Shown here: piece by piece, positions 42,334-59,697 of the stretch
Layout: the number at the start of each line of letters is the position of its first letter
Position numbering within the stretch: position 1 is the first letter of the stretch
Source of the DNA: Burkholderia sp. SRS-46
GTDB taxonomy: Bacteria; Pseudomonadota; Gammaproteobacteria; Burkholderiales; Burkholderiaceae
Direction: 5' to 3'
Assembly: GCF_004343775.1 (NCBI RefSeq)
Contig: NZ_PTXL01000002.1
Location: 496,001-560,000 of the forward strand
Length of the DNA: 64,000 bases
Position numbers and translations under genes: made by a program
The notes under the pieces: generated by a model
The model's database searches: none
The model's input: only the letters and a program-made list of their open reading frames with translations
What the model was told of the DNA's origin: nothing

Positions 42334-42798
42334 TCAGATCGTGATCCGCAGGATCGGAAAGAACCTTCCGGGGATGACGGCCGATTCCTTCTCGCCGATC
42401 TTTTCTGCGCCGAGCGCCAGATAGAACGGCATCGCATGGGGATCGGCCTCAATCACGAAATGCCGGATGCCCCGTTCGGCAGCTTCTTTCCGGAGCGCCG
42501 TCCAGAGCGCGCGGGCGACGCCCCGTCCCATATGATCGGGATCCACGAATAGCCAGCCCGGCGTCGGTCGATCCGACTCCACGGCCGCCCTGACCCAGAA
42601 CCCGATGATGGCCCCGTCGGCTTCTGCAACGCAGCCCATCGCGCTTTCGAGCCTCTCGGGCGTGATCGTCAGGTCGGCTCGCCACAGGTCCAGCCAATCC
42701 TTCGGGTAGCCCCAGTGGGATTTCGAGAGAAATGCCAGCTTCGAAAGCTGATCCGCGTCAGAAGGATCGGCAGCGCGGATGATGAAGGGGTTATGCAT
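42334..42798 (-). CDS. GNAT-family N-acetyltransferase
   Basis: This 154-residue acetyltransferase takes acetyl-CoA; its acceptor is unknown. The fold is seen from IRAADPSDADQLSKLAF to LGAEKIGEKESAVIPGR. The acetyl-CoA-binding motif A is LFVDPDHMGRGVARALWTAL (about 85-104), and FVIEADPHAMPFYLALGAEKIG follows. I chose ATG 42798; the frame running to 43002 is non-coding in style. It lies downstream of the GH92 genes on the same strand but is separated from them by a strong stem-loop. Confidence 0.85.
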   Translation of the reverse strand: MHNPFIIRAADPSDADQLSKLAFLSKSHWGYPKDWLDLWRADLTITPERLESAMGCVAEADGAIIGFWVRAAVESDRPTPGWLFVDPDHMGRGVARALWTALRKEAAERGIRHFVIEADPHAMPFYLALGAEKIGEKESAVIPGRFFPILRITI

Positions 42799-42897
42799 GG
42801 CGTCTTCTTTCTCCGTCGCGGCCTTCGCAAGATGACGGTGCCGCCCCGAACCCATTTCCGGACCGCCCGCATGTCCGAACGCACCGGGACAACACGA

Positions 42898-42929
42898 GGC
42901 GACCGGGAGACCACTGCCTCCCGGTCGCC
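42898..42929 (-). terminator. strong stem-loop after the GH92 gene pair
   Basis: A perfect 12-bp arm (42898-42909 with 42918-42929) encloses an 8-base loop, 50 bases beyond the stop of the downstream GH92 gene. On the minus strand it is followed by TCGTGTTGT, only weakly T-rich. It is the likely end of the GH92 transcript. Confidence 0.6.
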
Positions 42930-42979
42930 CCGTTTCAGTCCGGATGAACCGCCGCGACGCGCAAATCGCAACGTCGCGG

Positions 42980-45976
42980 TCAGCCGCCCACGGCCATCGC
43001 AAACACGTGCTGACGCCCGCTGCTGACCTGATACGGGAACGTGACGCTCTTCACGGCCCGGGCCGGATCGATCGCCTGCGTCCACTGGAACACCTTGGCC
43101 GAGACGTTGTCCGCGCTGCCATCCATCTGCACGCGCGTCGGCGTCGACAGCGCAACCGTGTTGTAGGCGCCCGGCTGCCTGCTGCCGCCGTTCAGCGTCC
43201 AGTCGTCGAAGGTCAGATCGACTGCCGCCTGCGTACCGTCGACATAGGTGACGATCAGCTTGCCGGTGGACGGGCCATTCGTCGCGCTGCCGAGCAGCGA
43301 CAGCGACCTGCCGCGCAGCGGTGTCGAAAACGTGATCGTCTGCCCCTGGACGACCATGTTGTCCAGCCCCATCCTGCCGTCCGGCCAGGCGAACGTCAGA
43401 CCGTTGAACGCGAGTTGCGCGCCCGGCGCCGCGCCGGCTGCGGCGAGCGCCTCCCGCGAATATCGCCATCCCGATCCGTCGAACGTATAGCCTTCGGCGG
43501 CGAGGTCCGGCCTCGAACCGTTCGCGCCGACGCCGGTGTTGTTGAGCGCATCGGCGATGCCGGCGAATCCGTCGAGGCCATAGGACGGCAATTTCCCGGC
43601 GGCGGACGCGCCCCATTTCGACGGTTCGCCGCCCATCGCGAGATCGAGTCTCGCCACCGTGCGAAGATCGTCCTGCAGCCATACCCACGGCGCGTCGAGC
43701 GCGGCGCCGTTGAGCGAAGCGCTCTGGATATAGCGCGAGTCGGGGCCGTTTCCGGTCGCGCTGATGACCAGTTGCTTCGTGCCGTCCGCCCATCGAACGA
43801 CGGCCTTTGGAAACACCGGCGCGTGCAATGCGAGCCCGCCGACGGACGGAATGGCCGGGTACGCGCCGAGCGCGGCCCACACGTACCACGACGAGACCGC
43901 GCCGAGATCGTCGTTGCCGGGCAGCCCGCCGGGGCCATCGCTGAATACGGCGGCGATGTTCTCGCCCGGATTGCCGTTGACGATGTCGCGCACCACCTTC
44001 TGCGTGCGCCACGGCGCGCCGGCCCAGTTGTAGTGCCACGGCGACGCGAAGCTTGGCTCGTTGCCGATGTAGAAATTCGGCGGCGACATGCCGGCGTTCA
44101 GGTTGGAAAAATACGCGTCCAGCCGCTTCACGACGGCGTCGTTGCCACCCATCAGCGCGTACAGTTCGCGCGTGTCGTGCAGCGTCATCCACGTATATTG
44201 CTCGGCGTTGCCCTCGACCATGTCCTGGTTCGCAATCGGCGCAAGCTTCCAGCTGCCGTCGTCGAAGCGCGGCAGGATCTGCTTCTGCTGCGCATTGAAC
44301 ATGTTCTTCCACTGCGCGGCGCGCGCGAGGAACTGACGATAGGCCGGTTCGTTGCCGAGCGATTTCGCGAACGACGCGATCGCAAAGTCGACGGCGCTGA
44401 ATTCGGGCGTCAGCGAGCCGGCCCACCACCCTCGGCTGAGCGACACGAAACCGCGCGTCAGGTGATCGCTCATCCGGTCGTCGCCGTCGCGCGGAATCGT
44501 GTTGCCGCAGCGAACCACGCGCTTGTTGCCGGCCAGCCGCATGTACTTCAGTGCGCCCGCGGTATCGAAGGCCGTGGCGCCGAACGCATAGCCGCCGACG
44601 ATGACGGGCACGCCGGAGTCGCCCGGCATGATGCCCTGGTCGACGTTGATCGGCGACCAGCGCGGAATCGCGCCGCACTGGTCGGCGTCGGTCACGAGCG
44701 ACTGCAGCATGTCGCTGGTCTCGTGCGGGAACAGCATGCCGAGCAGCGGCATCAGGCTTCGATAGGTGTCCCAGTTCGAATAGTTCACGTATTGCGTGCG
44801 GCCGCTCTCGACCCGGTGAACCTTCCTGTCGAAGCCGATGTAGTCGCCGGTGACGTCGCTGTTGACGTTCGGCGACAGCATCGAGTGATACAGCGCCGTA
44901 TAGAACTTGCGCTTGTCGACGAGCGATCCGCCGTCCACCTGGATCGTATTCAGCCGATCGTTCCATGTGTCGTCGGCGGCCTTGCGCACGGCGTCGAAAT
45001 CCCAGTGGGTCGCGGGGTTCTCCGCATCCAGGTTCCGCTTCGCGTTGTCGATGCTGACATACGACAACGCCACCTTCATCTGGATCGGCGCGTTTGTCGC
45101 GGCAAAGCGCACTTTCGCGTTGCCGTTGCCGAGGTCGGTCGCCGTCTTGTCGATGTTGCGGTCGAACCGAATGTAGAAATAGACCGTGTAGTTCGGCGCG
45201 CCGCAGAAGCCGCCTCCCACCGTCGAGCCCTGCAGCGCATCGTTGGCCGCATAGCCGATGCTGCCCGCCGTCGACGCCTTGGTGTTCGTGCGCGTGGCGT
45301 CGATCACGAGCGCAGGCGCCCGCGCGCTGTCGGGAAAGGTGAAGCGCGCGAAGCCGGTGCGTGTCGTCGCGGTCAGTTCCACCTTGATGCCGTCGTTCAG
45401 CGCGACGCGGTAGTAGCCCGGCGTCGCGGTTTCGTTCTCGTGCCTGAAGTTCGGCACCGGCTTGACGAGGTTCGATGCGACGGTGGCCGGATCGAGCGCC
45501 GGCATCACCGGGAGTTCGCCGGAATTGCCGTCGCAGCCCGCGCCGCTCATCTGCGTGAGCGGGAAGCCGATGATCGTGTTCTCCGTATAGACATAGCCGA
45601 CCGGCGTGTCCTTCCCGCCGCCGGGCTTGATGCTGGGCGTCATCGGCGTCCACTGCACCATGCCGAACGGCGTGGTGGCGCCGGGGAACGTGCCGCCACG
45701 CTCGCCGGCCGGCACCGGGTCGGTCGCGCGGACACTGGCGTTGGCCGTGCCGACGAACGGATTGACGTACTGGGTCAGCGACGCCCGCGTGTACGATTCC
45801 TCGGGGACGGCGGTCGTGTCGGCCGACTGGCCGATCGGGCTGCCCGTCGCGGGCCGCGCGGCATCCACGGCCGACGACGAGACCCTGGACGACGACATGC
45901 CGTCATCCCCATTGCAGCCGACGAGCAGCACACTCGCCAGGAGTGCAGTCAATACGGCGTTGTATCGTCTTTTCAT
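42980..45976 (-). CDS. GH92 alpha-mannosidase-type lipoprotein with extra C-terminal module
   Basis: This 998-residue protein has a lipoprotein signal (VLLVGC, Cys about 21) and then the glycoside hydrolase family 92 fold. Family landmarks include YVNPFVGTAN, GGTFPGATTPFGMVQWTP, HRVESGRTQYVNYSNWDTYRS and GLPGNDDLGAVSSWYVWAALGAYP. GNDDxG holds the catalytic Asp of this Ca-dependent exo-alpha-mannosidase family. The last 150-180 residues form a separate beta-rich module, absent from the tandem paralogue, that may bind carbohydrate. It starts at ATG 45976 with AAGGAGG upstream, 69 bases after the other GH92 gene. It acts outside the inner membrane on mannose-containing glycans. Confidence 0.87.
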   Translation of the reverse strand: MKRRYNAVLTALLASVLLVGCNGDDGMSSSRVSSSAVDAARPATGSPIGQSADTTAVPEESYTRASLTQYVNPFVGTANASVRATDPVPAGERGGTFPGATTPFGMVQWTPMTPSIKPGGGKDTPVGYVYTENTIIGFPLTQMSGAGCDGNSGELPVMPALDPATVASNLVKPVPNFRHENETATPGYYRVALNDGIKVELTATTRTGFARFTFPDSARAPALVIDATRTNTKASTAGSIGYAANDALQGSTVGGGFCGAPNYTVYFYIRFDRNIDKTATDLGNGNAKVRFAATNAPIQMKVALSYVSIDNAKRNLDAENPATHWDFDAVRKAADDTWNDRLNTIQVDGGSLVDKRKFYTALYHSMLSPNVNSDVTGDYIGFDRKVHRVESGRTQYVNYSNWDTYRSLMPLLGMLFPHETSDMLQSLVTDADQCGAIPRWSPINVDQGIMPGDSGVPVIVGGYAFGATAFDTAGALKYMRLAGNKRVVRCGNTIPRDGDDRMSDHLTRGFVSLSRGWWAGSLTPEFSAVDFAIASFAKSLGNEPAYRQFLARAAQWKNMFNAQQKQILPRFDDGSWKLAPIANQDMVEGNAEQYTWMTLHDTRELYALMGGNDAVVKRLDAYFSNLNAGMSPPNFYIGNEPSFASPWHYNWAGAPWRTQKVVRDIVNGNPGENIAAVFSDGPGGLPGNDDLGAVSSWYVWAALGAYPAIPSVGGLALHAPVFPKAVVRWADGTKQLVISATGNGPDSRYIQSASLNGAALDAPWVWLQDDLRTVARLDLAMGGEPSKWGASAAGKLPSYGLDGFAGIADALNNTGVGANGSRPDLAAEGYTFDGSGWRYSREALAAAGAAPGAQLAFNGLTFAWPDGRMGLDNMVVQGQTITFSTPLRGRSLSLLGSATNGPSTGKLIVTYVDGTQAAVDLTFDDWTLNGGSRQPGAYNTVALSTPTRVQMDGSADNVSAKVFQWTQAIDPARAVKSVTFPYQVSSGRQHVFAMAVGG

Positions 45977-46045
45977 GCCCCCTCCTTTGGTTTTGCAGTG
46001 GCGGAACCCGACCGCGTCGCACGGCAATCTCGACTTGCGACAGGA

Positions 46046-48658
46046 TCAAGGCGCCGGTTTCGCGACGGCCTTCGTGTAGTCCGCGCCCGGGCCGGACGGC
46101 GGCGCCAGCGCTGCACCCGTTGCCCAGTCGGTCGGCGCGGACGACAACGTGTAGGTCAGCGTGCCGCCGTTGGCAATGGCCGCGAGCGGCAGCCACGATC
46201 CCTGGTAGGCCTTGCCGTTGAGCTGCACGGACTTGATGTACGGCTTGCCGTTCAGCAGCGCCTCGTCGTCGGACTCGATGCGCAGCTTCTTCGTGCCGTC
46301 GGCGAGCCAGATCGTCATGCCCTTGAACTGCGGCGTCGACATCGCCAGGCCGGGCGCCGACGGCACGACCGGATAGAGGCCGAGGCTCGCCCACAGGTAG
46401 AAGCCGGACGTCGCGCCGAAGTCGTCGTTGCCGGGCAGGCCGCCGGGTGCGTTGAAGAAGGTCTTCGTCATCACGATCGGGATCACGCGCTGCGCGAGCT
46501 GCGGCCTGCCGGTCCAGTTGTACGCCCACGGCGTCTGCAACGACGGCTCGTTGCCGATGTACAGCGTGCTGCCCGATTCGCCGCTGTTGAGCGTCGACGC
46601 GCTCGGCAACGGGCCGTTGAACGGATCGGCCTGGCCGAGGCCGAACAACGTGTTCAGTCGCGCGATGGCTGCGGCGTTGCCGCCCAGTTGGCTGATCAGC
46701 TCCGTGTAGTCATGGCCGATCGTCCAGATGTAGTTCGGCTCGGTCGATTCATGGAAGCCGCGATTGTTGTCGAGACTGAAGTCCCATCGTCCGCTCGAGT
46801 TCTTCGTGACGAGCCCCTTCGTTTCACCGTAGTAGTCGTTTCCGGGCGGAATGTTCGCGTTGAAGATATTGATCCAGTTGCGGCCGCGCTTGCGCAGCGC
46901 AGCGACGGTGCTTGCGTCGTCGCTGCGGCCGAGCGCGGCGAGGAAGTTGCCGATCGACGTGTCCGTCGCGGTCAGTTCCAGCGTCATCGAGCCCGCGTGA
47001 TGGTTCCCGGCAACATCGGTCGACACGTAGCCGTTCTTCAGATAGAAGTCGCCGACCGTGTTCACGCCTGCGCCGTCGTCGACGCTGCCCATGTTGTTGC
47101 ATGCACCCTCGACGAACGGGCTGCCCGGTCCGCCCGTGCCGAACGCGGATTGCAGCATGTACTTGCGCGCGGTGTCGATGTCGAAGCCGCGTGCGCCGAA
47201 CGCATAGGCACCCGCGATCACGTTCGGGGCGTGGTCGCCTTCCATCGGCTTGGTGTCGTCGCTGCCGTCCACCCAGTGCGGAAACGCGCCGCACTGCCTC
47301 GCATCGGCCACGAGCGACTGCATCATGTCGCCCGTCTCGCCCGGGAACATCAGCGCCTGCAATTGCGTCAGCGAGCGGTACGTATCCCACAGCGAGAATC
47401 CCGAATAATGCGTACGGTACGCATTCGGATGGCCGGGCACCGGATACTGCGACACGTTGGCCGTGTCGCGCCGGGGCGCCGTGTTCGGGGGATCGGCGAG
47501 ATTGGCCTGGCGCATGCCGCGATAGTCGCCGTTGACATCGCTGTAGACCGTCGGGCCCGCCATCGCGTGATAAAGCGCGGTATAGAACTGCGTGACGTAA
47601 TCCTTCGCAGTCCTGGCTTGCGCATCCCCAAGGCGGCCCATCGCACCCGGTTGGGCGAGATCGAGCTGGATCGTGTTGAGCCGGCTGTTCCAGGCCGCAT
47701 CCAGCCTGCCCCTGACCTTGTCGAACGACCAGCCGGGGTTTTCCGTCGTCAGATTCAGCTTGGCATTCGCCACGCTGACCGACGAAATGCCGGCCTTCAG
47801 CTGCACGGTCGTCTTGCCGCCATCGGCCTTGGGCACGAACACGAGCGTTGCGACGCCGTTGGCGACCTTGGTTGCCTTCGGATCGAGCGGGGTATCGAAC
47901 GTGATGTAGAAGTTCACCGGCTTGTACCAGGTGCCGCCACAGAACGCGCCGACCACCGTCGTGCCGGACACGACGCCCGTCCGGGCATCGACGGCGATGT
48001 TGACCGAGTCCGGTATCAGCGTCGTCGGAACGCCCGACTTCATGCCGTTGCTGCGCAGTGCATTGATCACGAGAGTCGGCGCCGAACCGGACGGATAGGT
48101 GAGGCGCGCCATCCCGGTGCGCGTCGTTGCCGTGAATTCGCTGAGAATGCCGTTGCTGGTCGTCACGCCGTAATAACCGGGCGACGCCGCCTCGTCGTCG
48201 TGCGAGAACGACAGCGCACCGCCGCCCGGAATCATCGCGACGGCGCCCTGCCCGCGGCAGCCGGGGCCCGCCAGATGCGTCAGGCTGAAGAAGTCGATGG
48301 TCGTATCGGCGTAGTAGTAGCCGCCGGAACCGTTCCCCCATGGCGCCCTGCTGCCGGGCGTATCGGGACCGAAGCTGACCATGCCGAACGGCGCCTGCGC
48401 CGCCGGGTTCAGATTGCCGGGGAACAGGCCGCCGGCCTTGGGCGCGCCCGTGCCGATGAATACGTTGACGAACTTCGTCAAACCGGCGATATCGGTTCGC
48501 TTCGCGACGGCCGGCTCGCCGTTTCCTGGAGGACTGGCCACGGCTTCCGAAACGGCAGGCGTGGCGGGTGCGGACTCGACCGAATCGCCGCCGCATCCCG
48601 ATGTCATCAGCGCGGCCGTCATGGCGGTGGCCGCCGCCCAATGCGCCCTTCTATTCAT
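46046..48658 (-). CDS. GH92 alpha-mannosidase-type lipoprotein
   Basis: This 870-residue lipoprotein has the lipobox LMTSGC (Cys about 22). The GH92 fold starts near residue 60 with KFVNVFIGTGAPKAGGLFPGN and includes RTHYSGFSLWDTYRSLTQLQALMFP and GLPGNDDFGATSGFYLWASLGLYPVVP with the catalytic GNDDxG. It lacks the extra C-terminal module of its neighbour. The two genes form a tandem pair on one strand and probably attack different linkages or lengths of alpha-mannan or mannosylated glycoprotein. Confidence 0.87.
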   Translation of the reverse strand: MNRRAHWAAATAMTAALMTSGCGGDSVESAPATPAVSEAVASPPGNGEPAVAKRTDIAGLTKFVNVFIGTGAPKAGGLFPGNLNPAAQAPFGMVSFGPDTPGSRAPWGNGSGGYYYADTTIDFFSLTHLAGPGCRGQGAVAMIPGGGALSFSHDDEAASPGYYGVTTSNGILSEFTATTRTGMARLTYPSGSAPTLVINALRSNGMKSGVPTTLIPDSVNIAVDARTGVVSGTTVVGAFCGGTWYKPVNFYITFDTPLDPKATKVANGVATLVFVPKADGGKTTVQLKAGISSVSVANAKLNLTTENPGWSFDKVRGRLDAAWNSRLNTIQLDLAQPGAMGRLGDAQARTAKDYVTQFYTALYHAMAGPTVYSDVNGDYRGMRQANLADPPNTAPRRDTANVSQYPVPGHPNAYRTHYSGFSLWDTYRSLTQLQALMFPGETGDMMQSLVADARQCGAFPHWVDGSDDTKPMEGDHAPNVIAGAYAFGARGFDIDTARKYMLQSAFGTGGPGSPFVEGACNNMGSVDDGAGVNTVGDFYLKNGYVSTDVAGNHHAGSMTLELTATDTSIGNFLAALGRSDDASTVAALRKRGRNWINIFNANIPPGNDYYGETKGLVTKNSSGRWDFSLDNNRGFHESTEPNYIWTIGHDYTELISQLGGNAAAIARLNTLFGLGQADPFNGPLPSASTLNSGESGSTLYIGNEPSLQTPWAYNWTGRPQLAQRVIPIVMTKTFFNAPGGLPGNDDFGATSGFYLWASLGLYPVVPSAPGLAMSTPQFKGMTIWLADGTKKLRIESDDEALLNGKPYIKSVQLNGKAYQGSWLPLAAIANGGTLTYTLSSAPTDWATGAALAPPSGPGADYTKAVAKPAP

Positions 48659-49418
48659 TCAGCTCTCCGTATCATGGATTTCGCGAACATGGCACGTCAT
48701 TGTCCACGTCAGTTTGCCTTGAAGAAACGCATGTCTGCCATCAGGAAGTTTCCCTCATTTTTATTGATTTTATCTAAACAGGCCGCATTAAAAGCAACTT
48801 CTTGTTCCGTTCACGACAGTGGCACATTCGTCGCGACTGAACGATTTTTGTCAACGTATACCTGACCTGCGAGAGAGAACCGGCAGGATTCTGTTGCGAT
48901 AATGATGCGCGATTATCGAATAAGGCAGACATAAAATGGATCGTCATCGACACGGCGTCGGCGGACACCCCAAGGTTTACTGAGTGCGTGCTGTGCGGCC
49001 GACACGCGCCGACCAATGATCGTGGACATGCCCGCACTGGCAAGCGCAGCGCGGCGGCGCTTGCCTTTCGGACAAGTACGTGGGCACGGGAACGAAGCTG
49101 ACCCGGTAGTAACATCGTGGCCACGTGTGAGCAGGCGTCCCCGGGAAGTTGCCGGTTTGAGTCAATACGCAACCTTGAAAGTGCGTGAATCCTCACGCAG
49201 CCTGGCATTCGCACCGGCCGTGGCGTAACCTGTGGCCCATCGAGATGCTCGCGCTAAAATGCGCCCGACCTGCCGCGAGCAGCGTGTTTTTGCTGCTGCC
49301 GGCGAGGGAATTGCAGCACGCGAGCATATTTTGCAATGCCTAAATTCTTCATGTTTCGACGAGGAACAAATGGGGGCTGAAGGTGTATCAGAAAAACGAA
49401 TATTGAGAGAGAACGAAT
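48659..49418. other. gene-free region at the left edge of the quorum-sensing locus
   Basis: These 760 bases contain no frame I can support. The stretch 48700-48960 and the last 100 bases are rich in A/T compared with the GH92 genes. The region must contain the promoters of the GH92 pair (minus strand) and of the sensor kinase (plus strand). The frames at 48774-49214 and 49016-49228 show no family resemblance. Confidence 0.5.
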
Positions 49419-50741
49419 ATGCATGTTCAGCGCCGAAGCCGTTCGCTGCAGCGCAGCATCCGTAAAGCGTTTGCACCGGCATCGCGCAATATGCAATACG
49501 TCGAGGGACGCCTGCGTCCGTTCGCGATCGTCGCCATTATCGGCTTTCCTCTCTATTACTACATCTGGCACGAAGTCTTTCCGCAACGCTACGAGAATCT
49601 ATCGTTGCGGATCATCGGATCGATGCTCTTTCTGCCCATCTTGTTTCATCACCACTGGCCGGCTGCCGTGCGCCGGCTTATGCCCTACTATTGGCACGCC
49701 ATTATTCTTTATGCGCTACCGTTTTTCTTCACATTCATGTTGTTGAAAAATGAGGGCTCGCAGGTTTGGGTCGAGAGCACCTTGATCGCCGCGTTCGTGA
49801 CGGTGCTGCTGCTTGATTGGCTCATGCTGCTACTTAGCTTTGTCGCGGGCGTCAGCTTGGCCGTCGTTGCCTATTGCTTGACTACGACACCCGTTCATTT
49901 CGGCACGCCTTATTTCGCGCATCTCGCTATCCTCGCGTTCGCGATCGTGATCGGTGCCGTCGCCAACTACGACACGGCGCGCATTCGGTTCGAGCAAGAG
50001 CGAGCGATGGTCGCCACCGCAGGCAGCGTCGCGCATGAGCTTCGCACGCCGCTCCTGGCCATCCGTGCCGGCGCAGCGGGACTAAGCCGCTTCCTGCCTC
50101 AGCTTCTCGACAGCTATGACCTCGCGCAGCGCAGCGGCCTTCACATTCCGAAGATCCGCTTCGCGCATCTGTCGTCGATGCACGGCGTGCTTGAGCGGAT
50201 CGAACAAGAGGCTTTGCTGTCGAATTCGGTGATCGACATGTTACTCGTCAATGCGCGTTTTACCGGCGGCTTCAGTCAAAGGCCCGAGCGCTGCTCGATC
50301 GCGCGCTGCGTTGAAACGACCCTGCATCGCTACCCGTTCCGTGGAGCCGAGCGCGACCATATCCGCTGTGATCTCACTGACGACTTCGAGTTTCAAGGCT
50401 CGGAGACACTTGTAGTGCACGTGCTGTTCAATCTCATCAAGAATGCCCTGCGCTCGCTGAGCAGCGTCGACAGTGGCGACATTTCGATTCATCTCTACTC
50501 CTCGGAACGAGCGAACCGGCTCGTGTTCCGCGATAACGGGCCAGGAATCGAACCCGACGCGCTGCCTCACATCTTTACGCGTTTTCACACCTCTTCGGTG
50601 ATCAACGACGATGTCTCGCTCGGGGCCGGAATCGGCTTGGCGTTCTGTCGCGATGTGATGCGGGCGATCGGTGGAGCGATCGAGTGCACGTCGACAAAGA
50701 ACGCGCACACACAGTTTGTACTAACCTTTCCGTTGCCATAA
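49419..50741 (+). CDS. CqsS-like alpha-hydroxyketone sensor histidine kinase
   Basis: This 440-residue kinase has an N-terminal six-helix membrane sensor (about 28-180) resembling Vibrio CqsS. FPQRYENLSLRIIGSMLFLPI, YYWHAIILYALPFFFTFMLL and the order of helices match that receptor of CAI-1-type alpha-hydroxyketones. The HisKA domain has His206 (AHELRTPLLAIRAG), and the ATPase domain has N (LFNLIKNALRSL), G1 (DNGPGI) and G2 (GAGIGLAF) boxes. Unlike Vibrio CqsS it has no C-terminal receiver; a separate regulator gene follows five bases after its stop. Start ATG 49419 has GAGAGA upstream. GC content is lower than in most of the window, suggesting transfer. Confidence 0.85.
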   Translation: MHVQRRSRSLQRSIRKAFAPASRNMQYVEGRLRPFAIVAIIGFPLYYYIWHEVFPQRYENLSLRIIGSMLFLPILFHHHWPAAVRRLMPYYWHAIILYALPFFFTFMLLKNEGSQVWVESTLIAAFVTVLLLDWLMLLLSFVAGVSLAVVAYCLTTTPVHFGTPYFAHLAILAFAIVIGAVANYDTARIRFEQERAMVATAGSVAHELRTPLLAIRAGAAGLSRFLPQLLDSYDLAQRSGLHIPKIRFAHLSSMHGVLERIEQEALLSNSVIDMLLVNARFTGGFSQRPERCSIARCVETTLHRYPFRGAERDHIRCDLTDDFEFQGSETLVVHVLFNLIKNALRSLSSVDSGDISIHLYSSERANRLVFRDNGPGIEPDALPHIFTRFHTSSVINDDVSLGAGIGLAFCRDVMRAIGGAIECTSTKNAHTQFVLTFPLP

Positions 50742-50746
50742 TAATC

Positions 50747-51766
50747 ATGATCGAACCCTTCGCATTTCCGACCACGGTCGGCTTCATTGACGACAGTGCA
50801 TCCTTTCTCGCCAATCTGAGCTTGCAGCTCGACACGCAATTGGCATTTCGCTTCTTCCATTCGCCAGAGCGCGCGATCAGTGTTATCAACGACGAAGCGA
50901 TCCAACCACTCGCCGCAGAAGACTTTCTCTGCCGCTATCACGATCGATCGGAACAGAGTGACGCCCACGAGGTGATCGCGATTCGGATCGACGCGATCCG
51001 ACGTCAAATGCACAACGCTCGGCGATTCGAGCGGACTTCGGTCGTCGTCGTCGACTACGACATGCCGGGCATGAACGGCCTGGAAGTCTGCCGACGCATC
51101 GCCAATCCGGCCGTCAAGAAGATCATGCTGACCGGGAAGGCCGATGAACAGGTGGCCGTCAAGAGCTTCAACCACGGCCTCATCGACCGGTTCATTCGCA
51201 AGCAGGATGTTCACGCCATGTCCGCGCTCAATGAAGCGATCGACGAGATGAAGCGCGCGTATCTGCGACAGACGCAACGCACGGTCATCGAAGCGCTCGG
51301 CTTGTCGGAGTACCGGTTTCTAGTCGATCCGGCATTCGTGGCGAAGGCGTCGGAAATCTTTTGCGAACTCGGCATTGTCGAGCACTATCTGTCGACGCGC
51401 CCAACGGGGCTCGTGATGCTCGATAGCGCTGGCACGCCCTATCTGCTACTCGTGCATACCGAGGATGCGCTGCGCGCGACCCGCGAAATCGCCGTCGAGC
51501 GTGGCGCGCCCGCCGCGTTTCTCGCCGAACTCGACAATGGCCATCGCGTACCTTACTTTCCCGATTCGGAGGGGTACTATCCGCTCGGGTGCACGTTGTG
51601 GCAGCCGTACATGCATTCCGCGACGGTCGTTCGAGGCGAGCATGTCTACACGTGCAGCGTCATCAAGAATCCGCCTGGCCTTGATCTGGGTTCCATCGTT
51701 TCCTACGACGCCTATCTCGAGCGCCTTGATCACGAGATGGATGCAAGAGGGGATTCACGAGCATGA
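50747..51766 (+). CDS. response regulator with inserted receiver and unknown C-terminal domain
   Basis: This 339-residue protein has an atypical receiver. The acidic pair D15-D16 (GFIDDSAS) is separated from the phospho-acceptor D103 (VVVDYDMPGMNG) by far more than the usual ~40 residues, so there is an insertion of roughly 45 residues. The downstream landmarks (MLTGK, IDRFIRKQD) are normal. From about residue 185 to the end there is a domain I cannot assign, with no helix-turn-helix, GGDEF, EAL or HD motif visible. It follows the CqsS-like kinase after five bases and is almost certainly its partner. The output is unknown; LqsR of Legionella is the nearest concept, but similarity was not tested. 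Confidence 0.8.
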   Translation: MIEPFAFPTTVGFIDDSASFLANLSLQLDTQLAFRFFHSPERAISVINDEAIQPLAAEDFLCRYHDRSEQSDAHEVIAIRIDAIRRQMHNARRFERTSVVVVDYDMPGMNGLEVCRRIANPAVKKIMLTGKADEQVAVKSFNHGLIDRFIRKQDVHAMSALNEAIDEMKRAYLRQTQRTVIEALGLSEYRFLVDPAFVAKASEIFCELGIVEHYLSTRPTGLVMLDSAGTPYLLLVHTEDALRATREIAVERGAPAAFLAELDNGHRVPYFPDSEGYYPLGCTLWQPYMHSATVVRGEHVYTCSVIKNPPGLDLGSIVSYDAYLERLDHEMDARGDSRA

Positions 51767-51802
51767 ATCCCCATGGGGTTGACGCTCAGGCGCTTCCGTT
51801 GC

Positions 51803-53080
51803 TTACACTGCTTGCCTGATGTCCGCTATCCGGTCGATCGCGCGTGCGCTGGCGTGCATCCGCTGCGTTGACGGCCAGTCATCGAGCTCAACCTCATCGC
51901 GAATCGCTTCGCAGACGCGGACGATTCGCCGCAACTCGTCGCGTGTGAGTCCGGCATGCACGGACAACCGAATGAGCGCGCGGTTTTTCGCCGTGGCAGG
52001 CGCGCAGAAGACCGAGCCGAAAATACCATTCGACTCGAGCGCGTCGCGTAGCTTGATCGTCCGTTGCTCCGTGCCGGACTCGAGTGCGATGATTTGAGAT
52101 TCGCTCCCGTTAAGGTTATAACCGAGGCGCGTGAGTTGTTCACGCAGGTACCGTGCATTTGCGGCGACCTGCGTGCGCCGCCATGCTTCCTTTTCGATCA
52201 CGAGGATCGTGGCCTCCAAAGCGGCGGCTTCATGCGGTAGCAAGGTCGAACTAAAGATCGCCGGACGCGATTCGAACTTGAAGTACTCCTGGAATCGACT
52301 CGAGCAACTGATCACACCCGCGCGGCCGGCAAACGCCTTTGCGAGGCTCGCCGTACGAAAGTGCACACGGTCAGTCAGTCCCAACTCGACGACGAGCCCT
52401 GCACCATCCGGCCCATGCGTACCGAGCGAATGTGATTCGTCGACGACGAGCACGCAGCCGGCCGTTGTTGCCACGTCGACGACGTCGGCCAACGCACAGA
52501 CGCTGCCGTTCGTGCTGTAAATCGAGTCGACGACTACGATGCCAGGTCCGTGCCGTCGAATTTGCCGCACGAGATGGTCGACATCGTTATGGGCAAAGGC
52601 GACTGCTTTCGCACCTGCGCTTTGCACACCTTCCCATAGCGACATATGGGCCATCATGTCGAGGTATACGGGCGTTTTAGCGGAAGCGATCGACTGAAGC
52701 AAGCCGGTATTCGCCGCATAGCCGGATTGACAGAGAATCGCTGATTCCGAGCCCATGAAGCGGGCGAACCTGTCTTCGAGATCAAGCAACGGACATGCCC
52801 CGTGCAGAAATATGCCGGACATCAGCATCCCATTGCCCTCCGACTTGATGCTTGCGCACATCGATTCGAGGATATCGGGGTGTCGGGCGATCGACAGATA
52901 ATCGTTGCTCGACAAATGCAACGCGTCGGGGCCGGGCATACGCCCTCGCATAATATGGCCACCGTTCCAGTTCCCTTGAACGCGCTCGTTATAGTAGCGT
53001 GCGATTCGTTCAGCAACGAATGCCGGAAGCGGGACTCCGCCGACGTTCGACTTGGTTTTCACTTCGTAGTTTTCAAGCAC
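51803..53080 (-). CDS. CqsA/LqsA-like alpha-hydroxyketone autoinducer synthase
   Basis: This 425-residue pyridoxal-phosphate enzyme belongs to the alpha-oxoamine synthase group and most resembles CqsA/LqsA. These enzymes condense an acyl-CoA with an amino-acid substrate to make CAI-1/LAI-1-type signals. SSNDYLSIARHPD (about 58-70), GSESAILCQSGYAANTGLL, the cofactor Asp214 in VVDESHSLGTHG and Lys248 in TASLAKAFAGRAG are seen. I chose GTG 53080 because AAGGAG lies six bases upstream; the frame opens as far as 53161. It faces the sensor/regulator pair convergently, 36 bases apart. A 16-bp dyad sits just upstream. Confidence 0.87.
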   Translation of the reverse strand: MLENYEVKTKSNVGGVPLPAFVAERIARYYNERVQGNWNGGHIMRGRMPGPDALHLSSNDYLSIARHPDILESMCASIKSEGNGMLMSGIFLHGACPLLDLEDRFARFMGSESAILCQSGYAANTGLLQSIASAKTPVYLDMMAHMSLWEGVQSAGAKAVAFAHNDVDHLVRQIRRHGPGIVVVDSIYSTNGSVCALADVVDVATTAGCVLVVDESHSLGTHGPDGAGLVVELGLTDRVHFRTASLAKAFAGRAGVISCSSRFQEYFKFESRPAIFSSTLLPHEAAALEATILVIEKEAWRRTQVAANARYLREQLTRLGYNLNGSESQIIALESGTEQRTIKLRDALESNGIFGSVFCAPATAKNRALIRLSVHAGLTRDELRRIVRVCEAIRDEVELDDWPSTQRMHASARAIDRIADIRQAV

Positions 53081-53405
53081 TTTAAGCTCCTTATGGTCAT
53101 CTGCACGGTTGTGCAGCGCTGCATAATGAGCCACCCGCTTGGTATAAAGAATTCGCGACACGCTTAACCGCGTGACACCCCGAGCCTTTCTATATCGTAA
53201 TATTCATGCCATTTGAAAAGTTCTTCATCCTTTACATGAAAAAGTGATGAACCAGGAAATATCGTTCGACGAGTATCTGGAATAACTTCGTGAGGCAGCA
53301 AGGCCCGGAAGGTGGAGAGGAACATGGCGCGCTTGAGCACCTTGTTGCCGCGCGTGGATAGAAGTTGGAAGTTCGCCTCGGATAGACGAGCCACTCGGAG
53401 AACAA
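53081..53405. other. intergenic control region between the synthase and luxR-type genes
   Basis: This 325-base divergent region should hold the promoters of the autoinducer synthase (leftward) and the LuxR-type regulator (rightward). It contains the dyad at 53101-53116. An A/T-rich stretch lies at 53185-53285. A minus-strand frame from 53394 to 53164 (76 codons) has no recognisable family and no good start, so I do not call it a gene. Confidence 0.5.
53101..53116. promoter_or_regulatory. lux-box-like 16-bp dyad upstream of the cqsA-like gene
   Basis: CTGCACGGTTGTGCAG is a perfect inverted repeat (6-bp arms, 4-base centre) of the CT-N12-AG form bound by LuxR-type proteins. It ends 20 bases before the synthase start and just before its ribosome-binding site. 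So close to the start it would fit repression or an RNA hairpin better than activation. Confidence 0.5.
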
Positions 53406-54125
53406 ATGGAACTGCGCTGGCAGGACGCCTACCATCAATTCAGCGCCGCGGAGAACGAGCAGCAACTCTTTCAGCGAATCGCCGTCTATTCGAAGTGCCT
53501 GGGCTTCGAGTACTGCTGTTACGGGATCCGGGTGCCGCTGCCCGTATCGAAGCCGTCCGTCGCGATCTTCGACACCTATCCGGACGGCTGGATGGCGCAC
53601 TACCAGGCGAACAACTACATCGAGATCGATTCGACGGTCCGCGACGGCGCGCTCAGCACCAACATGATCGTCTGGCCGGACGTCGACAAGATCGGGCCGT
53701 CGCCGTTGTGGCAGGACGCGCGCGACTACGGCCTGTCGGTCGGCGTCGCGCAGTCGAGCTGGGCCGCGCGCGGCGCGTTCGGCCTGTTGAGCCTCGCGCG
53801 CCATGCCGACCGGCTCACACCCGCCGAAATCAACATGCTGACGCTGCAGACCAACTGGCTCGCGAACCTGTCACATTCGCTGATGAGCGGCCTCATGGTG
53901 CCGAAGCTCGCGCCAGCGGCAAGCGTCGCGCTGACGGCACGCGAACGCGAAGTGCTGTGCTGGACCGCCGAAGGCAAGACGGCGTGCGAGATCGGTCAGA
54001 TCCTCGGCATCTCCGAGCGGACGGTGAATTTTCACGTCACCAACGTCCTCGAGAAGCTTGGCGCGACCAACAAGGTGCAGGCGGTCGTCAAGGCGGTCTC
54101 GGCGGGGCTCATCGATACGCCCTGA
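53406..54125 (+). CDS. LuxR-type acyl-homoserine-lactone receptor, CepR-like
   Basis: This 239-residue regulator has an autoinducer-binding domain at about 20-165 and a LuxR helix-turn-helix at about 175-235. The ligand pocket shows W and Y in PDGWMAHYQANNY, D in EIDSTV and W in MIVWPDV. The HTH has LTAREREVLCWTAEGKTACEI and ISERTVNFHVTNVLEKL. The whole sequence is very close to CepR/BtaR1 of Burkholderia as remembered. No luxI (cepI) gene is in the window, whereas cepR is normally near cepI, so it is an orphan here or a second copy. ATG 53406 has CGGAG upstream. Confidence 0.85.
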   Translation: MELRWQDAYHQFSAAENEQQLFQRIAVYSKCLGFEYCCYGIRVPLPVSKPSVAIFDTYPDGWMAHYQANNYIEIDSTVRDGALSTNMIVWPDVDKIGPSPLWQDARDYGLSVGVAQSSWAARGAFGLLSLARHADRLTPAEINMLTLQTNWLANLSHSLMSGLMVPKLAPAASVALTAREREVLCWTAEGKTACEIGQILGISERTVNFHVTNVLEKLGATNKVQAVVKAVSAGLIDTP

Positions 54126-54204
54126 CGGCGGCGAGGCAACTGGGCGCCGAGCAGCGATCTACGTGACATTCACGGAAGCCGTCGGAATAGCCGGGAAGCT
54201 TGAC

Positions 54205-54300
54205 TGGCGGAAGGCAGCCGGAGTCGAACCGACCAGGGAGCGTCTGACGCCCCCTACTGGATTTGAAGTCCAGCCGCACCACCGGATACGGATGCCTTCC
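54205..54300 (-). tRNA. selC: selenocysteine tRNA (anticodon UCA)
   Basis: This 96-base gene, including an encoded CCA end (54205-54207), matches tRNA-Sec. The 8-bp acceptor stem pairs GGAAGGCA with TGCCTTCC. The anticodon stem-loop contains CTTCAAA with UCA at 54266-54264, a long variable arm follows, and GGTTCGACTCC forms the T arm. Length and the GCTGGACTTCAAATCCAG segment closely match the E. coli gene. It lies 18 bases after selB on the same strand, so it may be transcribed with selAB. Confidence 0.95.
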
Positions 54301-54318
54301 TTCGAAAAAAACGCGGAC

Positions 54319-56244
54319 CTACGCCGTCATACCGAGCCAGTCGCTATCAGGGCGCACAAGGTGTAAATCGCGGTGGAAGCGAGTATACCCAACACGATCG
54401 AAGAATTCGAGGATCTGAATCGCGCGCTTGCGGCCGAGCCCCGTCGCGTCGCGAAACGTCGCGGCATCGAGCCCGCCCTCTCTCGCGCGCACGAGCTGCG
54501 CGACCAGCATCGCGAGTTCCTGCATCACGTCCGCGTGATAGAACAGGTCGCGCACGACCTGATGCACGTCGCCGCGCCGCGCGAGCTTGCGCAGCAGCGC
54601 ACGCACCGCCTCCTCGGCCGCCCCCGTTTCGCCCGCGAGATCGCGCACCCACGGCGGATCGAAACGCCCCGCCCGAATCAGCGGCAGCAGCGTCCGCGCC
54701 AGCGCCTCCTCGCGCGCGTCGAGATTCACCGTATGCGACGGCAGATGCAGCCACGGGCCGCTTCGCGCGGCTTCACCGCCGTCGACCAACGCCTCCACCA
54801 GCGCGCGCCACAGCGCATCGCCGACGAGCGGCGCCGCCATCCGGCGCAGGCGCGCCGCGTCGATCCCCTGCTCGTCCGGCATGCGCTCGTGATACGCACG
54901 CAGCGTATCGACCGTCTTCGCCTGCAGCGCGCGCCAGTGCGCATGGGCAATCACCCAGCCGTCGTTCGCCGCGCCGCCGTGCTGACCGATCGCCAGCGCG
55001 TCGTCGGGCAACGTCAGCGCGTCCGGCGCGAAACCGGTCAGATGCGTGAGCATCGCGCGCGGGATGCCGAGCGGCGCCTCGCCGAGCAGTGCATCGAGCC
55101 GCCCTTCATCGAGCCACACGGCCAGCGCGTCGAGCCATGCGCGGCGTGCCGGTGTACGCCGCTTGCGCGCGGGCCCGAACGGATCGAGCACGCGCCCGCC
55201 ACCGACGGTGCGCGTCGCCTGCGGATTGCGCACGATGAAGCGGTCGCCCGGCAGCGCGAACATGGGCTCGTCGAACACCAGTTGCACGCGCATCCGTTGG
55301 CCCGCCGCGAGCGATTCGCCGTCGAGCAGCGCAACGTGCGCGACGCGATGCAGCGTGCCGAGATGCACGTGCAGCGGCGCCCAGTGCGCGAGCGTCAGCC
55401 CCGCATCCGCGAGCAGCGTCAGCTCGACGTCGATGCGCGGCGACGTCGCGACGAGCCGCGCATCCGCGACCGTATCGCCGCGCTCGACGTCGGCCTTGTC
55501 GACACCAGCCAGGTTCAGCGCGCATCGCTCGCCCGCATGCCCGACGTCGACCGGCCGGTTCTGCGCATGGATGCTGCGCACGCGCGTCGCGCCGCCCGTC
55601 CGCACGATCGCGAGCGTCTCGCCGGCCTTCGCCTGGCCGGCGAACGCGGTACCGGTCACGACCGTGCCCTGCCCCGCCAGCGTAAATACGCGGTCGACCG
55701 CGAGCCGGAACAGCCCGTCGTCGCGGCGCGCGCGCCACGCGATCGCCGCGTCGCCCAGATGACGCTTGAGCGCCGCGACGCCGGCATCGTCCGCGTCGGT
55801 CGCACGCGTCTCGAACACCGGCGCATCGGCCAGCGTCGAATCGTGCAGCCATGCGGCGATCTCGTCGCGCACCTGCGCGCGCCGCGCGGTGTCGACACGA
55901 TCGCATTTCGTCAGCGCGATCGCGCCGTGCGTGACGCCGAGCAGTTGCAGGATCGCGAGATGCTCGCGGGTCTGCGGCATCACGCCGTCGTCGGCGGCGA
56001 TCACGAGCAGCGCGAAGTCGATGCCGCATGCGCCGGCCGCCATCGTGTGAATCAGCTTCTCATGGCCGGGCACGTCGATCAGGCCGAGCACGTCGCCATT
56101 GTCGAGTGGCGTGTATGCATACCCGAGCTCGATCGAGATGCCGCGCGCCTTCTCTTCCTTCAGGCGATCGGTGTCGACGCCCGTCAACGCGCGCACGAGC
56201 GTCGTCTTGCCGTGATCGATGTGTCCCGCGGTACCAACGATCAT
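54319..56244 (-). CDS. selB: selenocysteine-specific elongation factor SelB
   Basis: This 641-residue GTPase delivers Sec-tRNA to UGA codons next to a SECIS loop. The GTPase domain has G1 GHIDHGKTT (7-15), the switch region [17 protein letters not shown] and TKCD. Translation-factor domains 2 and 3 follow, and then winged-helix repeats that bind the SECIS RNA occupy the C-terminal 250 residues (for example [23 protein letters not shown] and [20 protein letters not shown]). I chose ATG 56244, which overlaps the selA stop (ATGA); the longer frame is a selA shadow. selC follows. Confidence 0.95.
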
Positions 56245-57680
56245 GCGGCCGGCTCCGCGAATCGCGCGCATTGTGCGACGAAGGCCGCCTCGTCCTCGGC
56301 TTCGAGGCAGCGCAGGTCGAGGCGCAGCGCGCCGTCGGCGATGCGCCCGATCACCGGGCGCGGCCAGCCGCGCAGCCGTTTCTCGAGCTGCGCGAGCGCA
56401 CGGCCGCCGCGCTTGCCGTCCGGCGTGCGCACGACGAGCCCGGCGCTCGGCAACTGGTCGACCGGCAGCGCGCCGCTGCCGATCTGGCTGAACATCGGCT
56501 CGACGCTCACGGTATAGCCGCTGCCGAGCGCCGCCTGCAGCACCGGTTGCACGCGCGCAGCCGCGGCGGCGATGTCCGGTTGCGCGCGCGTCAGCAGCCG
56601 CAGCGTGGTCAGCCGCTCGCGCAGGAATTCCGGCGCCTGGTACAGGCGCAGCACCGGTTCGAGCGCGGCAAGCGTGAGCTTGCCGACGCGCAGCGCGCGC
56701 TTGAGCGGGTGTTTCTTGATCTTGCCGATCAGCGCGCGATCGCCGACGATCAGGCCGGCCTGCGGCCCGCCGAGCAATTTGTCGCCGCTGAACGTGACGA
56801 CGTTTGCACCACCGGCTACGGTTTCGCGCACCGTCGTTTCGTGCGGCAGCCCCCATTGCGTGAGATCGGCGAGCGTGCCGCTGCCGAGATCGACGGCCAC
56901 CGGCACGCCATGCTCGCGCGCGAGCGGCGCGAGTTCGGGCAGCGTCACTTCCTTCGTGAAGCCCGAGATCGCGTAGTTGCTGCAATGCACCTTCATCAGC
57001 AGCGCGGTGCGCGGGCCGATCGCGTCCGCATAGTCGCGCAGGTGCGTGCGGTTGGTGGTGCCGACCTCGCGCAGCCGCGCGCCCGCGCGGCTCATGATGT
57101 CGGGAATGCGGAACGCGCCGCCGATCTCGACCAGCTCGCCGCGCGACACGATCACCTCGCGCTTCGGCGCGAGCGCCGACAGCGTCAGCAGCACCGCGGC
57201 CGCGTTGTTGTTGACGACGGTCGCCGCCTCGGCGCCGGTCAGTTCGCACAGCAGATCGTCGATCAGGTCGTCGCGGTCGCCGCGACGGCCGGTCGCGAGG
57301 TCGAATTCGAGATTCACCGGCTGCGTGAGCGCCGCGACCACCGCGCGCACCGCATCGTCCGGCAGCAGCGCGCGGCCGAGATTGGTGTGCAGCACGGTGC
57401 CCGTCAGGTTGAAGACGGTGCGCACCGCGCCGGCGCTTTGCGCGGCCAGCGCGTGGGCGACGGCCGCGGCGATGCGCGTTTCGTCGAGCGGCTCGGCCGC
57501 CGCCGGATCATGCTGCGCCGCAGTGCGCCAGCGTTCGAGTTCCGCGCGCACCGCATTCAGCACGCGCGTGCGGCCGTAGGTGTCGAGCACCGGTTGCAGC
57601 GGCGCCGACGACAGCACGCGCTCGACCGACGGCACGCGCGCGAGCACCGTGTTCAATTCATTCAAAGCAGGTTCAGTCAC
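56241..57680 (-). CDS. selA: L-seryl-tRNA(Sec) selenium transferase SelA
   Basis: This 479-residue pyridoxal-phosphate enzyme converts Ser-tRNA-Sec to Sec-tRNA-Sec using selenophosphate. [41 protein letters not shown] and the cofactor Lys301 in [13 protein letters not shown] are diagnostic. I chose GTG 57680, with AGGAGA upstream; the frame opens to 57722 without a better start. Its stop overlaps the selB start. It is part of the operon fdhE-selA-selB-selC. Confidence 0.94.
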
Positions 57681-57746
57681 GAGTGAGTGGTCTCCTGTAG
57701 ACCGGGGCGCGCGCTTAGGCACGCTCTCCGGCCCCGGGCAATGCGT

Positions 57747-58679
57747 TCATTCTTCCTGCGACACATCCGGCCACAGCAGCGGGTTCGGCGAACTGCGCTG
57801 GTAGCCGGCCTCGTTCATCAACAGGTCGAGAGTGAGGCTGGCGAGATCGTCCGCGAGCGGCTCGAAGTCGTAATCCTTGTTCTGGTAGCCGATCTTGCGA
57901 TACGTCTTGCATTCGTCGCACGATTCGGCCTTCACGGCTTCGCTGCCGCCCTCGATGCCGTGGTACGCGATGCCCTTGGTCGAATCGCAGTGCGAGCACT
58001 TGGTGCGCACCATGTGCCATTCGGTCGCGCACAGCCCGCATTGCAGGAACCGATAGCCTTCGTACTGGCCGCCGACGCGCACCACGCTCGCGACCGGGTG
58101 CGTGCCGCACACCGGACACAGCCCGGGCTGGTCGAGAAACGGCACGTCGACCGGCTGCGTGCGGCTCGCGAGGTCGGTCCAGACCACCTGCAGCGCGGCC
58201 ATCAGGAACGGCGCGGTGGCCGGGTCGACTTCGGCGAAGCGCTGCGCGAGGATCGCGTCGGCCTGCGCGTCGAGCTCGGCCGGCGCCGTCAGGCGGAGCC
58301 GGTCGAGCAGCTTCGCGAGCGACGGATTGACGAGCCCGGCGCCTTCGACGCGGTCGAGCAGTTCATGCAGCACGGCCCGCCACTGCGGATCGCGCTCGCC
58401 GCCGAGCGCCGGCACGAGCGGCATCGAATGCTGCTGCGCACGCGCGATCGCTTCCTGCGACGGCATCTGCGCTGTGAAGTCCTGCAGCACCGCGTGCTGC
58501 GCGTCGGTGACCACGGCCATCAGCCGAAGGTAGCCGCCGATCGGGTTCAGGTCGGCCAGCTGGCGCAGGCGCGCGGCGCGCGCCGAGAAAACCGTTGCGC
58601 GTTCCGGCAGGCGGAAGCGCGGGATAGCCGAATGATCGAGCGCCGAGATGTCATTCGGTTCGAGAATGCGTTGTGTCAC
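57747..58679 (-). CDS. fdhE: formate dehydrogenase accessory protein FdhE
   Basis: This rubredoxin-like protein of about 310 residues is needed to mature membrane formate dehydrogenase. CxxC pairs are seen in CPVCGTHP, QCGLCATEWH, KCSHCDST and SCDECKTYRKI, which bind iron. The tail ends NPLLWPDV as in the family. I chose GTG 58679 with GGAAGA upstream; a TTG at 58694 would add five residues. It lies after the nested palindrome and before selA, so it may be uncoupled from the structural genes by that element. Confidence 0.92.
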   Translation of the reverse strand: MTQRILEPNDISALDHSAIPRFRLPERATVFSARAARLRQLADLNPIGGYLRLMAVVTDAQHAVLQDFTAQMPSQEAIARAQQHSMPLVPALGGERDPQWRAVLHELLDRVEGAGLVNPSLAKLLDRLRLTAPAELDAQADAILAQRFAEVDPATAPFLMAALQVVWTDLASRTQPVDVPFLDQPGLCPVCGTHPVASVVRVGGQYEGYRFLQCGLCATEWHMVRTKCSHCDSTKGIAYHGIEGGSEAVKAESCDECKTYRKIGYQNKDYDFEPLADDLASLTLDLLMNEAGYQRSSPNPLLWPDVSQEE

Positions 58680-59070
58680 GAGTGTGTCTTCCAAGGGGTC
58701 TGCTTGCGCATGGAACGCGCATGCGTTGCCACGAGAAGGGCCGCTCGCGAGGCGCGCGACGCAGCGAATACCGAACGTATTCGCAAGGAGCGCAACGTGG
58801 CGAGCGGCCCTTCTCGCGGCAACCCCAATCTAAGAATACATTCCAGGGGAATGCCCGAAATCGCCCGCATGGCGGCGTCGTTCGTCGCTTGTTTGGCTCG
58901 GCCAAACGGCGCTCCTCACGCCTTGCCCTGCGGGCGATTTCGGGCATTCGCATGCGCGTTCCATGCGCAAGCAGCCCCCAAACAAGCGCCGACGTATCGG
59001 CGCTTCCGGCGATTCCGGCGATGACGCGGAGCAGCCCGCCGCAACCGGCGCGCCGCCCCGTTCTGGTGCG
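58680..59070. other. 391-base region between fdnI and fdhE, mostly palindromic
   Basis: No gene is supported. Nearly all of the stretch 58700-58974 is taken up by one nested palindrome, listed separately. The frames seen in it are by-products of its symmetry. Confidence 0.6.
58700..58974. repeat. nested inverted repeat able to form a three-way junction
   Basis: Outer arms 58700-58725 and 58949-58974 are perfect 26-bp reverse complements. Inside lie two hairpins. The first pairs 58725-58748 with 58800-58823 (24 bp, one G:T-type mismatch) and is topped by an 8-bp stem (58764-58771/58777-58784) with loop CGAAC. The second pairs 58849-58869 with 58929-58949 (21 bp perfect) and is topped by GTTTGGC/GCCAAAC (58891-58907). 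It could be a mobile palindromic repeat, a transcript-processing site or a terminator. Confidence 0.85.
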
Positions 59071-59697
59071 CTACTTCACGCTTTCACGGAACCATTTCGG
59101 GTGGTGCTTGCGCGCCCAGCCGAGGGTTACCGTGCCGCGCACCATCGCCCGGATCGAGCCCTTGATCCACAGCGCCGCATAGATATGCGTGACGATGCCG
59201 ACGATCAGCACGAACGCCGCGACGGCGTGGACGACTGCCGCGATCCGGATCACCCCGATCGGGAAGTAGAACGAGAAATACCGCCGCCAGATGACGATGC
59301 CCGACAGCAGCAACAGCGCGAGACACGCCACCATCGCGAAGAATAGCAGTTTCTGTCCGGCGTTATAGCGCCCGATCTCCGGCAGCTTGTCCTCGCGGTT
59401 CGCGAGCACGTCGTCGATCTGGCGCAGCCACTGCACGTCGTCGCGGTCGAGCACGTTGTGATGCCAGTAGCGCACGGCCATCACCGCGAACGACACGAAC
59501 ATCACGAGGCCGACGAACGGGTGCAGGATCCGCGTCCACTGGCCGCCGCCGAACAGCGCGCTCAGCCAGAACATCGACGGATGGAACAGCGCGAGCCCGG
59601 ACAGCGCGAGCAGCACGAAGGTGATCGCGGTGATCCAGTGGTTCGTGCGCTCGTTCGCCGTGTAGCGGACGATCAGGTTGGGGTCGTCGTGCTTCAT
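59071..59697 (-). CDS. fdnI: formate dehydrogenase gamma subunit (cytochrome b)
   Basis: This 208-residue inner-membrane cytochrome b556 passes electrons from formate to quinone. It has four helices (about 20-40, 57-75, 112-132, 150-172). Histidines that can ligate two b haems are seen in [22 protein letters not shown] and GIVTHIYAA. It starts at ATG 59697, overlapping the beta-subunit stop. It is the last gene of the structural operon before the nested palindrome. The FdnI/FdoI choice is by analogy only. Confidence 0.92.

Follow-up and report, generated by a model that had tools for sequence, protein, structure and literature searches.

How does a complete alpha-hydroxyketone (AHK) signalling module come to lie beside a receptor gene for N-acyl-homoserine lactones (AHLs) in a Burkholderia genome, and does the receptor belong to the module? 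We examined this question in Burkholderia sp. SRS-46, in a stretch of 64,000 nucleotides (hereafter the window) from a genome of 8.59 Mb in 23 contigs. The backbone of the window is 94–98% identical to Burkholderia stagnalis YJ-2, B. stagnalis being a member of the B. cepacia complex by NCBI placement. A first-pass annotation, made from the letters of the window, had recognised a kinase, a regulator and a synthase gene here, and all three are intact. Our comparisons favour, at a probability of roughly 0.78, the reading that an AHK module of the LqsA/LqsS/LqsR type (JQS-like) was acquired, gained a copy of the host cepR gene and spread as a four-gene unit. The main features are as follows:

48814..54151, no strand: island, DNA absent from B. 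stagnalis, with low GC content
49419..50741, plus strand: sensor histidine kinase of the LqsS/JqsS/CqsS type, with six membrane helices, DHp (H206) and CA domains and no receiver
50747..51766, plus strand: LqsR-type response regulator, with receiver (D103) and LqsR C-terminal domain
51803..53080, minus strand: AHK autoinducer synthase of the LqsA/CqsA family, a pyridoxal phosphate (PLP) enzyme with a GTG start
53406..54125, plus strand: second, unpaired cepR copy (AHL receptor, LuxR family), 93% identical to native cepR at the amino acid level

The window's own genome is hereafter G000 and the second Burkholderia genome that carries the module is G034 (locus L026). YJ-2 (locus L195) is 99% identical to a further relative, G059 (locus L152), over the 12.9 kb compared.

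A three-gene module of a known kind

Sequence comparison confirms 51803–53080(-) as a predicted AHK synthase of the CqsA/LqsA family. It scores 607 bits against the AHK model NF005526 (curated cut-off 428), and the other NCBIfam models that match it each stay under their own cut-offs (BioF 249, KBL 215, SPT 206 and ALAS 171). CqsA structures are its best solved relatives, and its VDESHSLGTHG and TASLAK segments align with CqsA structure 3hqt; K236, the lysine in the TASLAK segment, presumably binds PLP. In a synthase tree built from 44 of the 80 extracted rows, Legionella LqsA being left out, the window and G034 proteins are sister to that of Trinickia dinghuensis (support 100/99) and all three are nested in a 16-row Burkholderiaceae group (100/99), while three superfamily paralogs encoded by the window's genome are split off from the AHK synthases (100/99; long outgroup branches flagged). 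The PLP synthase with CqsA/LqsA landmarks proposed at first pass is therefore retained: it lies within the AHK synthases and not inside the KBL or BioF clades, and the HemA and SPT alternatives, judged by NCBIfam score alone and outside the tree, fare no better. A KBL, BioF, SPT or ALAS identity is ruled out on NCBIfam score and tree together.

The kinase gene, 49419–50741(+), is likewise confirmed by comparison as encoding a putative six-helix CqsS/LqsS-type kinase without a receiver. In a seven-kinase alignment that includes the Vibrio campbellii kinase (L193) and leaves out Legionella LqsS, the window and V. campbellii proteins have in common the segment G-F-P-x-Y-Y-x-x-W ... F-P-Q-x-Y-E-N-L-x-L-R, so the suggested CqsS relationship of the sensor domain is upheld. 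The window kinase stops at 440 amino acids, whereas the L193 kinase runs on into a receiver. This bears out the earlier statement that the sensor lacks the Vibrio-type receiver and works with a separate regulator, and an identity as a Vibrio-type hybrid CqsS is rejected because that C-terminal receiver is absent. Legionella LqsS is also a kinase without a receiver. An alignment of 29 kinases, the window's included, has 74 invariant columns (e.g. H206, N338, D372, G374, G404 and G406). The AlphaFold2 (AF2) model of the kinase (mean pLDDT 76, pTM 0.44) has helices at residues 19–53, 61–75, 88–110, 115–131, 134–155 and from 163 onwards, compatible with six passes through the membrane, and its kinase core is of the standard form and matches solved kinases.

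The regulator matches LqsR over its full length in both sequence and structure, C-terminal domain included, and keeps the invariant receiver positions, which confirms 50747–51766(+) as a predicted full-length LqsR-type regulator. Neither Pfam nor the structure matches reveal a DNA-binding part, the structure list consisting mostly of receivers and being weak on the C-terminal fold.

We then compared gene order among 74 AHK loci (the window, G034, 10 family-genome loci and 62 others; 4 are repeats, leaving 70 distinct places), Janthinobacterium sequences being left out of all comparisons. The kinase is present in 71/74 loci and the regulator in 66/74; wherever all three genes occur, kinase and regulator face the synthase convergently (66/66). 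Another five loci have kinase and synthase with no regulator match, and in three of these both genes run in the same direction. The window thus holds the complete synthase–sensor–regulator set that the first-pass annotation described for a Burkholderia-like genome, as three intact full-length genes in a convergent layout. The idea that such a module would be new to the family does not survive: PMC3376566 names Ralstonia eutropha and Burkholderia (now Paraburkholderia) xenovorans among Burkholderiaceae with AHK clusters, and 56/299 family genomes have a synthase above the cut-off. Taken as three genes, the module is a typical Lqs/Jqs system, of an already known kind that is rare in Burkholderia proper (2/65 genomes).

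Among known systems, JqsA/JqsS/JqsR of Janthinobacterium, as described in PMC3566124 and PMC5080296, has a synthase beside a separate kinase and an LqsR-type regulator, as here. The genome of Janthinobacterium HH01 is reported as apparently lacking AHL signalling, whereas LuxI/LuxR-type genes are present in the window's host, with a cepR copy inside the locus itself. LqsA/LqsS/LqsR of Legionella pneumophila belong to the same three protein families (PMC3376566 and PMC10692735); the window differs in lacking an hdeD-type gene between kinase and regulator and in having the added cepR copy. A sensor-domain search (E 1e-6) found no second, LqsT-type or orphan AHK receptor in the 65 genus genomes. 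The synthase is 45% identical to that of V. campbellii and the sensor-domain segment is shared, but in V. campbellii the receiver is part of the kinase itself, and the window uses a separate LqsR-type regulator. The proposed likeness to Vibrio CqsA/CqsS therefore holds for the sensor segment and fails as the closest resemblance, which lies nearer LqsA/LqsS/LqsR and JqsA/JqsS/JqsR. Paraburkholderia xenovorans LB400 (L081) and T. dinghuensis (L058) have the same gene order and the closest sequences (synthase 69–75%, kinase 63–71%). Within the fetched AHK loci of Paraburkholderia and Trinickia the cepR query has no match at E 1e-5, in contrast to the window with its copy.

Further LqsR-like genes occur elsewhere. 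Locus L213 of the window genome (G000:C16:259000-278900) contains a second, distant LqsR-like regulator (26%) and a kinase whose core is 35% like the module's, at 17495-18535(-) and 19289-19891(-). The pair has no AHK synthase match within 20 kb, a LuxR gene ~2 kb away and a second LuxI-type gene (L213 2054-2659) ~15 kb away; weak LqsR-like regulators similar to this one are present in 19 more of the 65 genus genomes. In Trinickia terrae, the AHK module is directly adjoined by a further pair, an LqsR-like regulator (28%) and a kinase (37%; L029, the same place as L059, 10165-12544).

The island and its cepR copy

Module sequences are confined within the genus to two genomes: both the synthase (E up to 1e-60) and the sensor domain (E up to 1e-6) were found only in G000 and G034. 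The GC content over the module is 58.6–59.5% (three 2-kb bins), compared to 65.5% and 70.3% in the flanking bins. YJ-2 and G059 align with the window up to 48813 and resume at 54152, at 94–95% identity, and their interval is filled by unrelated DNA of ~5.5 kb (L152 10137-15635), in which inspection by eye of G059 suggests an aldehyde dehydrogenase, an oxidoreductase and a LysR-type regulator. Because B. stagnalis holds other DNA between matching flanks, we take the site to be variable and the island to span ~48814-54151, beside the following landmark:

54205..54300, minus strand: tRNA-Sec gene (selC), at the island's right edge and outside the module

Integration into selC by a tRNA-type integrase is rejected, the evidence showing adjacency and a variable site only. 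On the other side of the island, 42980-46027 and 46046-48658 encode tandem large proteins that we take to resemble GH92-type mannosidases.

The rarity of the module in the genus (2/65), T. dinghuensis as its nearest relative outside it, the low GC and the B. stagnalis site empty of the module together suggest that the AHK module, nearest to Trinickia's, was likely acquired laterally. G034 has the four genes together at 89–93% amino acid identity (DNA ~90%) in different surroundings; an empty site for its cassette in relatives matched on the right side only, with no match for the left side in the stretches fetched. Synonymous divergence (dS) between window and G034 is 0.27 for the kinase, 0.21 for the regulator, 0.31 for the synthase and 0.18 for the cepR copy, against 0.41, 0.55 and 0.35 for three backbone genes (native cepR, cepI and selB). 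All four genes are less diverged than these backbone genes, which favours a transfer of the entire unit later than the species split.

Synthase homologues outside the genus were also seen. One (48%) is on the conjugative-typed plasmid pTM3 of Tistrella mobilis (L194), a possible vehicle of spread; another (46%) is on a contig of the Bacteroidota member Chryseobacterium formosense (L116), with no kinase or regulator match in the locus. One family genome, G317, has two AHK synthase loci (L034 and L035), the weaker match having one TGA and no kinase or regulator found with it.

The fourth gene, 53406-54125, encodes a protein 93% identical to that of a gene in the same genome (C22:38366-39082), which adjoins a LuxI-type gene (C22:39858-40370). 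Between these native genes lies the box AACTGGTAACTCTTACAGGG, found with ≤5 mismatches in all 38 such loci scanned. We take the C22 pair to be cepR/cepI, the B. cepacia complex system, and the box to be the cep box. A cepR match (E up to 1e-30) is present in 64/65 genus genomes, mostly at ~90% identity. In two of them cepR matched as two slightly overlapping pieces (G026:C2:1271091-1271806 and G061:C112:64842-65556), possibly a frameshift.

The island copy has both the AHL domain and the helix-turn-helix (HTH) domain. Its homology to native cepR is limited to 53395-54127, i.e. the ribosome-binding site and coding sequence, so it lacks the native flanks. No LuxI match was found in the window, the luxI partner standing by the native C22 cepR; compared with the CepR/CepI system of the B. 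cepacia complex, the island gene is thus a copy of a luxI-linked cepR without luxI or cep box. The orphan receptor CepR2 of B. cenocepacia is distinct from it (PMC10134790).

In a cepR tree reconstructed from a 53-row codon alignment, the pair of AHK-linked copies makes up one clade (99/99) that groups with the native cepR of the window genome, G059 and three others (86/86). A native cepR next to a LuxI gene is present in G034 as well, and grouping of the G034 copy with that gene is rejected by the approximately unbiased test (p-AU 0.0005). By this tree, the cepR copies in both AHK loci share one origin, other than G034's own cepR. The 'hybrid signalling locus' beside an AHL receptor imagined at first pass is accordingly sound as anatomy, with a second cepR copy and the same module and copy in G034, while the circuit interaction that it implies is still a hypothesis.

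Competing explanations

Two further features separate synthase and copy:

53081..53405, no strand: spacer between the divergent genes for synthase and cepR copy, in which no cep box and no JAI-1 motif was found
53287..53352, minus strand: probable IS110 (ISBma3-like) transposase remnant, placed by alignment with L026

Judging from the protein families, the synthase would condense an acyl-coenzyme A with S-adenosylmethionine or 2-aminobutyrate to form a hydroxyketone-type signal, which the six-helix kinase would sense; its H206 would then donate phosphate to D103 in the LqsR-type regulator. After its entry into Burkholderia, the module would have gained a host cepR copy, divergent from the synthase and without native flanks, and module and copy would then have spread as one four-gene unit.

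Several observations tell against this reading. Concerning descent, (i) the next branch toward the copy's source lineage is weak (67/6); (ii) p-AU is 0.10 for a tree in which the window copy alone joins the native cepR of its own lineage, so this grouping is not rejected; (iii) the copy arose once, and therefore the two genomes count as one event; (iv) the four genes fall modestly below the backbone in dS, a difference based on three backbone genes; and (v) no integrase was seen, nor any att-like tRNA repeat (≥12 bases) in 40000-60000. Concerning function, (vi) the ratio of nonsynonymous to synonymous divergence (dN/dS, computed by a custom script) is raised between the two copies, at 0.29; (vii) the HTH of the window copy has the change N212T, unseen in 51 other cepR rows, and that of the G034 copy has S203A and E216V (unseen in natives) and N208T (seen in natives); (viii) the island contains no cep box, its best score being 0.2 against 37.7–40.5 for ten native boxes, with a matrix built from 38 native boxes; and (ix) the JAI-1 motif TTGAN6/7TCAA is absent from the window (0 matches), in which the locus differs from JQS.

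Given the HTH substitutions and the mutual dN/dS of 0.29, drift or a shift to new targets is possible for the copy. In all, 5 residues of the window copy, N212T among them, and 10 of the G034 copy are unseen in 51 native cepR rows. Control of the synthase through a cep box is rejected, as no island site has a score comparable to native boxes. In the whole genome, the only exact box lies beside the LuxI gene, and ≤3 mismatches occur at 12 sites against 21 for a reversed-pattern control. JAI-1 was found upstream of 0/74 synthases and 0/71 kinases (4 repeats; a set with no Janthinobacterium-named locus and hence no positive control). Promoter and terminator scans performed no better than shuffles.

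The strongest rival, to which we give slightly less than even odds, is that the AHK module works while the cepR copy is a passenger of an IS110-related rearrangement with no role in the circuit; it shares its module part with the four-gene-unit reading, so the two probabilities overlap. In both genomes, the stretch that separates synthase and copy probably contains an IS110 remnant, immediately upstream of the latter. The remnant at the same place in G034 is longer (L026 17758-17892) and is 64% identical (E 3e-8) to ISBma3-family transposases, and Pfam gave no match for either short piece. The lack of a cep box in the island, the copy–copy dN/dS and the private HTH changes also fit a passenger. 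Against this, the reading frame is intact in both species, the copy travels with the module in the second species, dN/dS between copy and native cepR is 0.10 (seven native pairs: 0.04–0.22), and the window copy retains W62, Y66, D75, W90 and G113, which we take to be AHL-binding positions.

We consider it improbable that the module eavesdrops or has decayed, with sensor and regulator working and the synthase inactive, or the reverse. Its restriction to two genus genomes, and the weak LqsR-like regulator and kinase with no nearby synthase elsewhere in the same genome, would fit such a state, but the three genes are full length and constrained (dN/dS between window and G034 0.11–0.22), and the invariant kinase and receiver positions are kept. 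It is very improbable that the enzyme yields a different alpha-oxoamine (by KBL-, BioF- or SPT-like activity) beside unrelated two-component genes: the fold family is the same and the BioF and KBL models also give scores, which stay under their cut-offs, but the AHK cut-off is well exceeded, and the tree and the conserved co-location with CqsS/LqsS- and LqsR-type genes speak against it.

LuxR genes beside AHK modules

LuxR genes with an AHL domain are present in 11/74 AHK loci: the window, G034 and nine others (L084, L094, L100 and L102–L107). The nine proteins all have Autoind_bind and GerE above cut-offs (9/9), are mutually 46–94% identical and are 30–35% identical to the cepR copy; their genes stand on the kinase side. 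These nine loci are Rhodocyclales-type by name or tree place, and a tenth Rhodocyclales locus (L109) has no LuxR gene. The remaining loci, some on short contigs, have no match to the cepR query at E 1e-5, and no LuxI was found in any of the 74 loci by tblastn, which recovered its positive controls.

Two functional proposals build on the preferred reading of an acquired module with a captured cepR. The first, which we put forward tentatively and with the odds against it, is the hypothesis that the copy reads the CepI-made host AHL and acts in or near the AHK circuit, either gating it or reporting on it. The second, a shade more doubtful, is that the unit is a mobile two-signal device in which AHL state would gate AHK production or response, AHK–LuxR joins having arisen at least twice; in Burkholderia the partner would be a cepR copy next to the synthase, and in Rhodocyclales an unrelated LuxR next to the kinase.

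Among the matches listed by a literature search, with subscription journals mostly outside it, no publication on an AHK locus that includes a cepR copy was met. The novelty lies in the four-gene arrangement that takes in a captured AHL receptor, as a variation on a known kind of system; the three-gene module alone is not new. Discussion of AHK signalling has usually centred on Vibrio, Legionella and Oxalobacteraceae, and no natural test case for its wiring to a resident AHL circuit was met among the matches listed. Here the two systems are joined in ~5 kb, island-free sister genomes provide a before-and-after comparison and the cepI-linked cepR in the same genome is an internal control for the copy. 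The output step of LqsR could also be approached in this Burkholderia unit.

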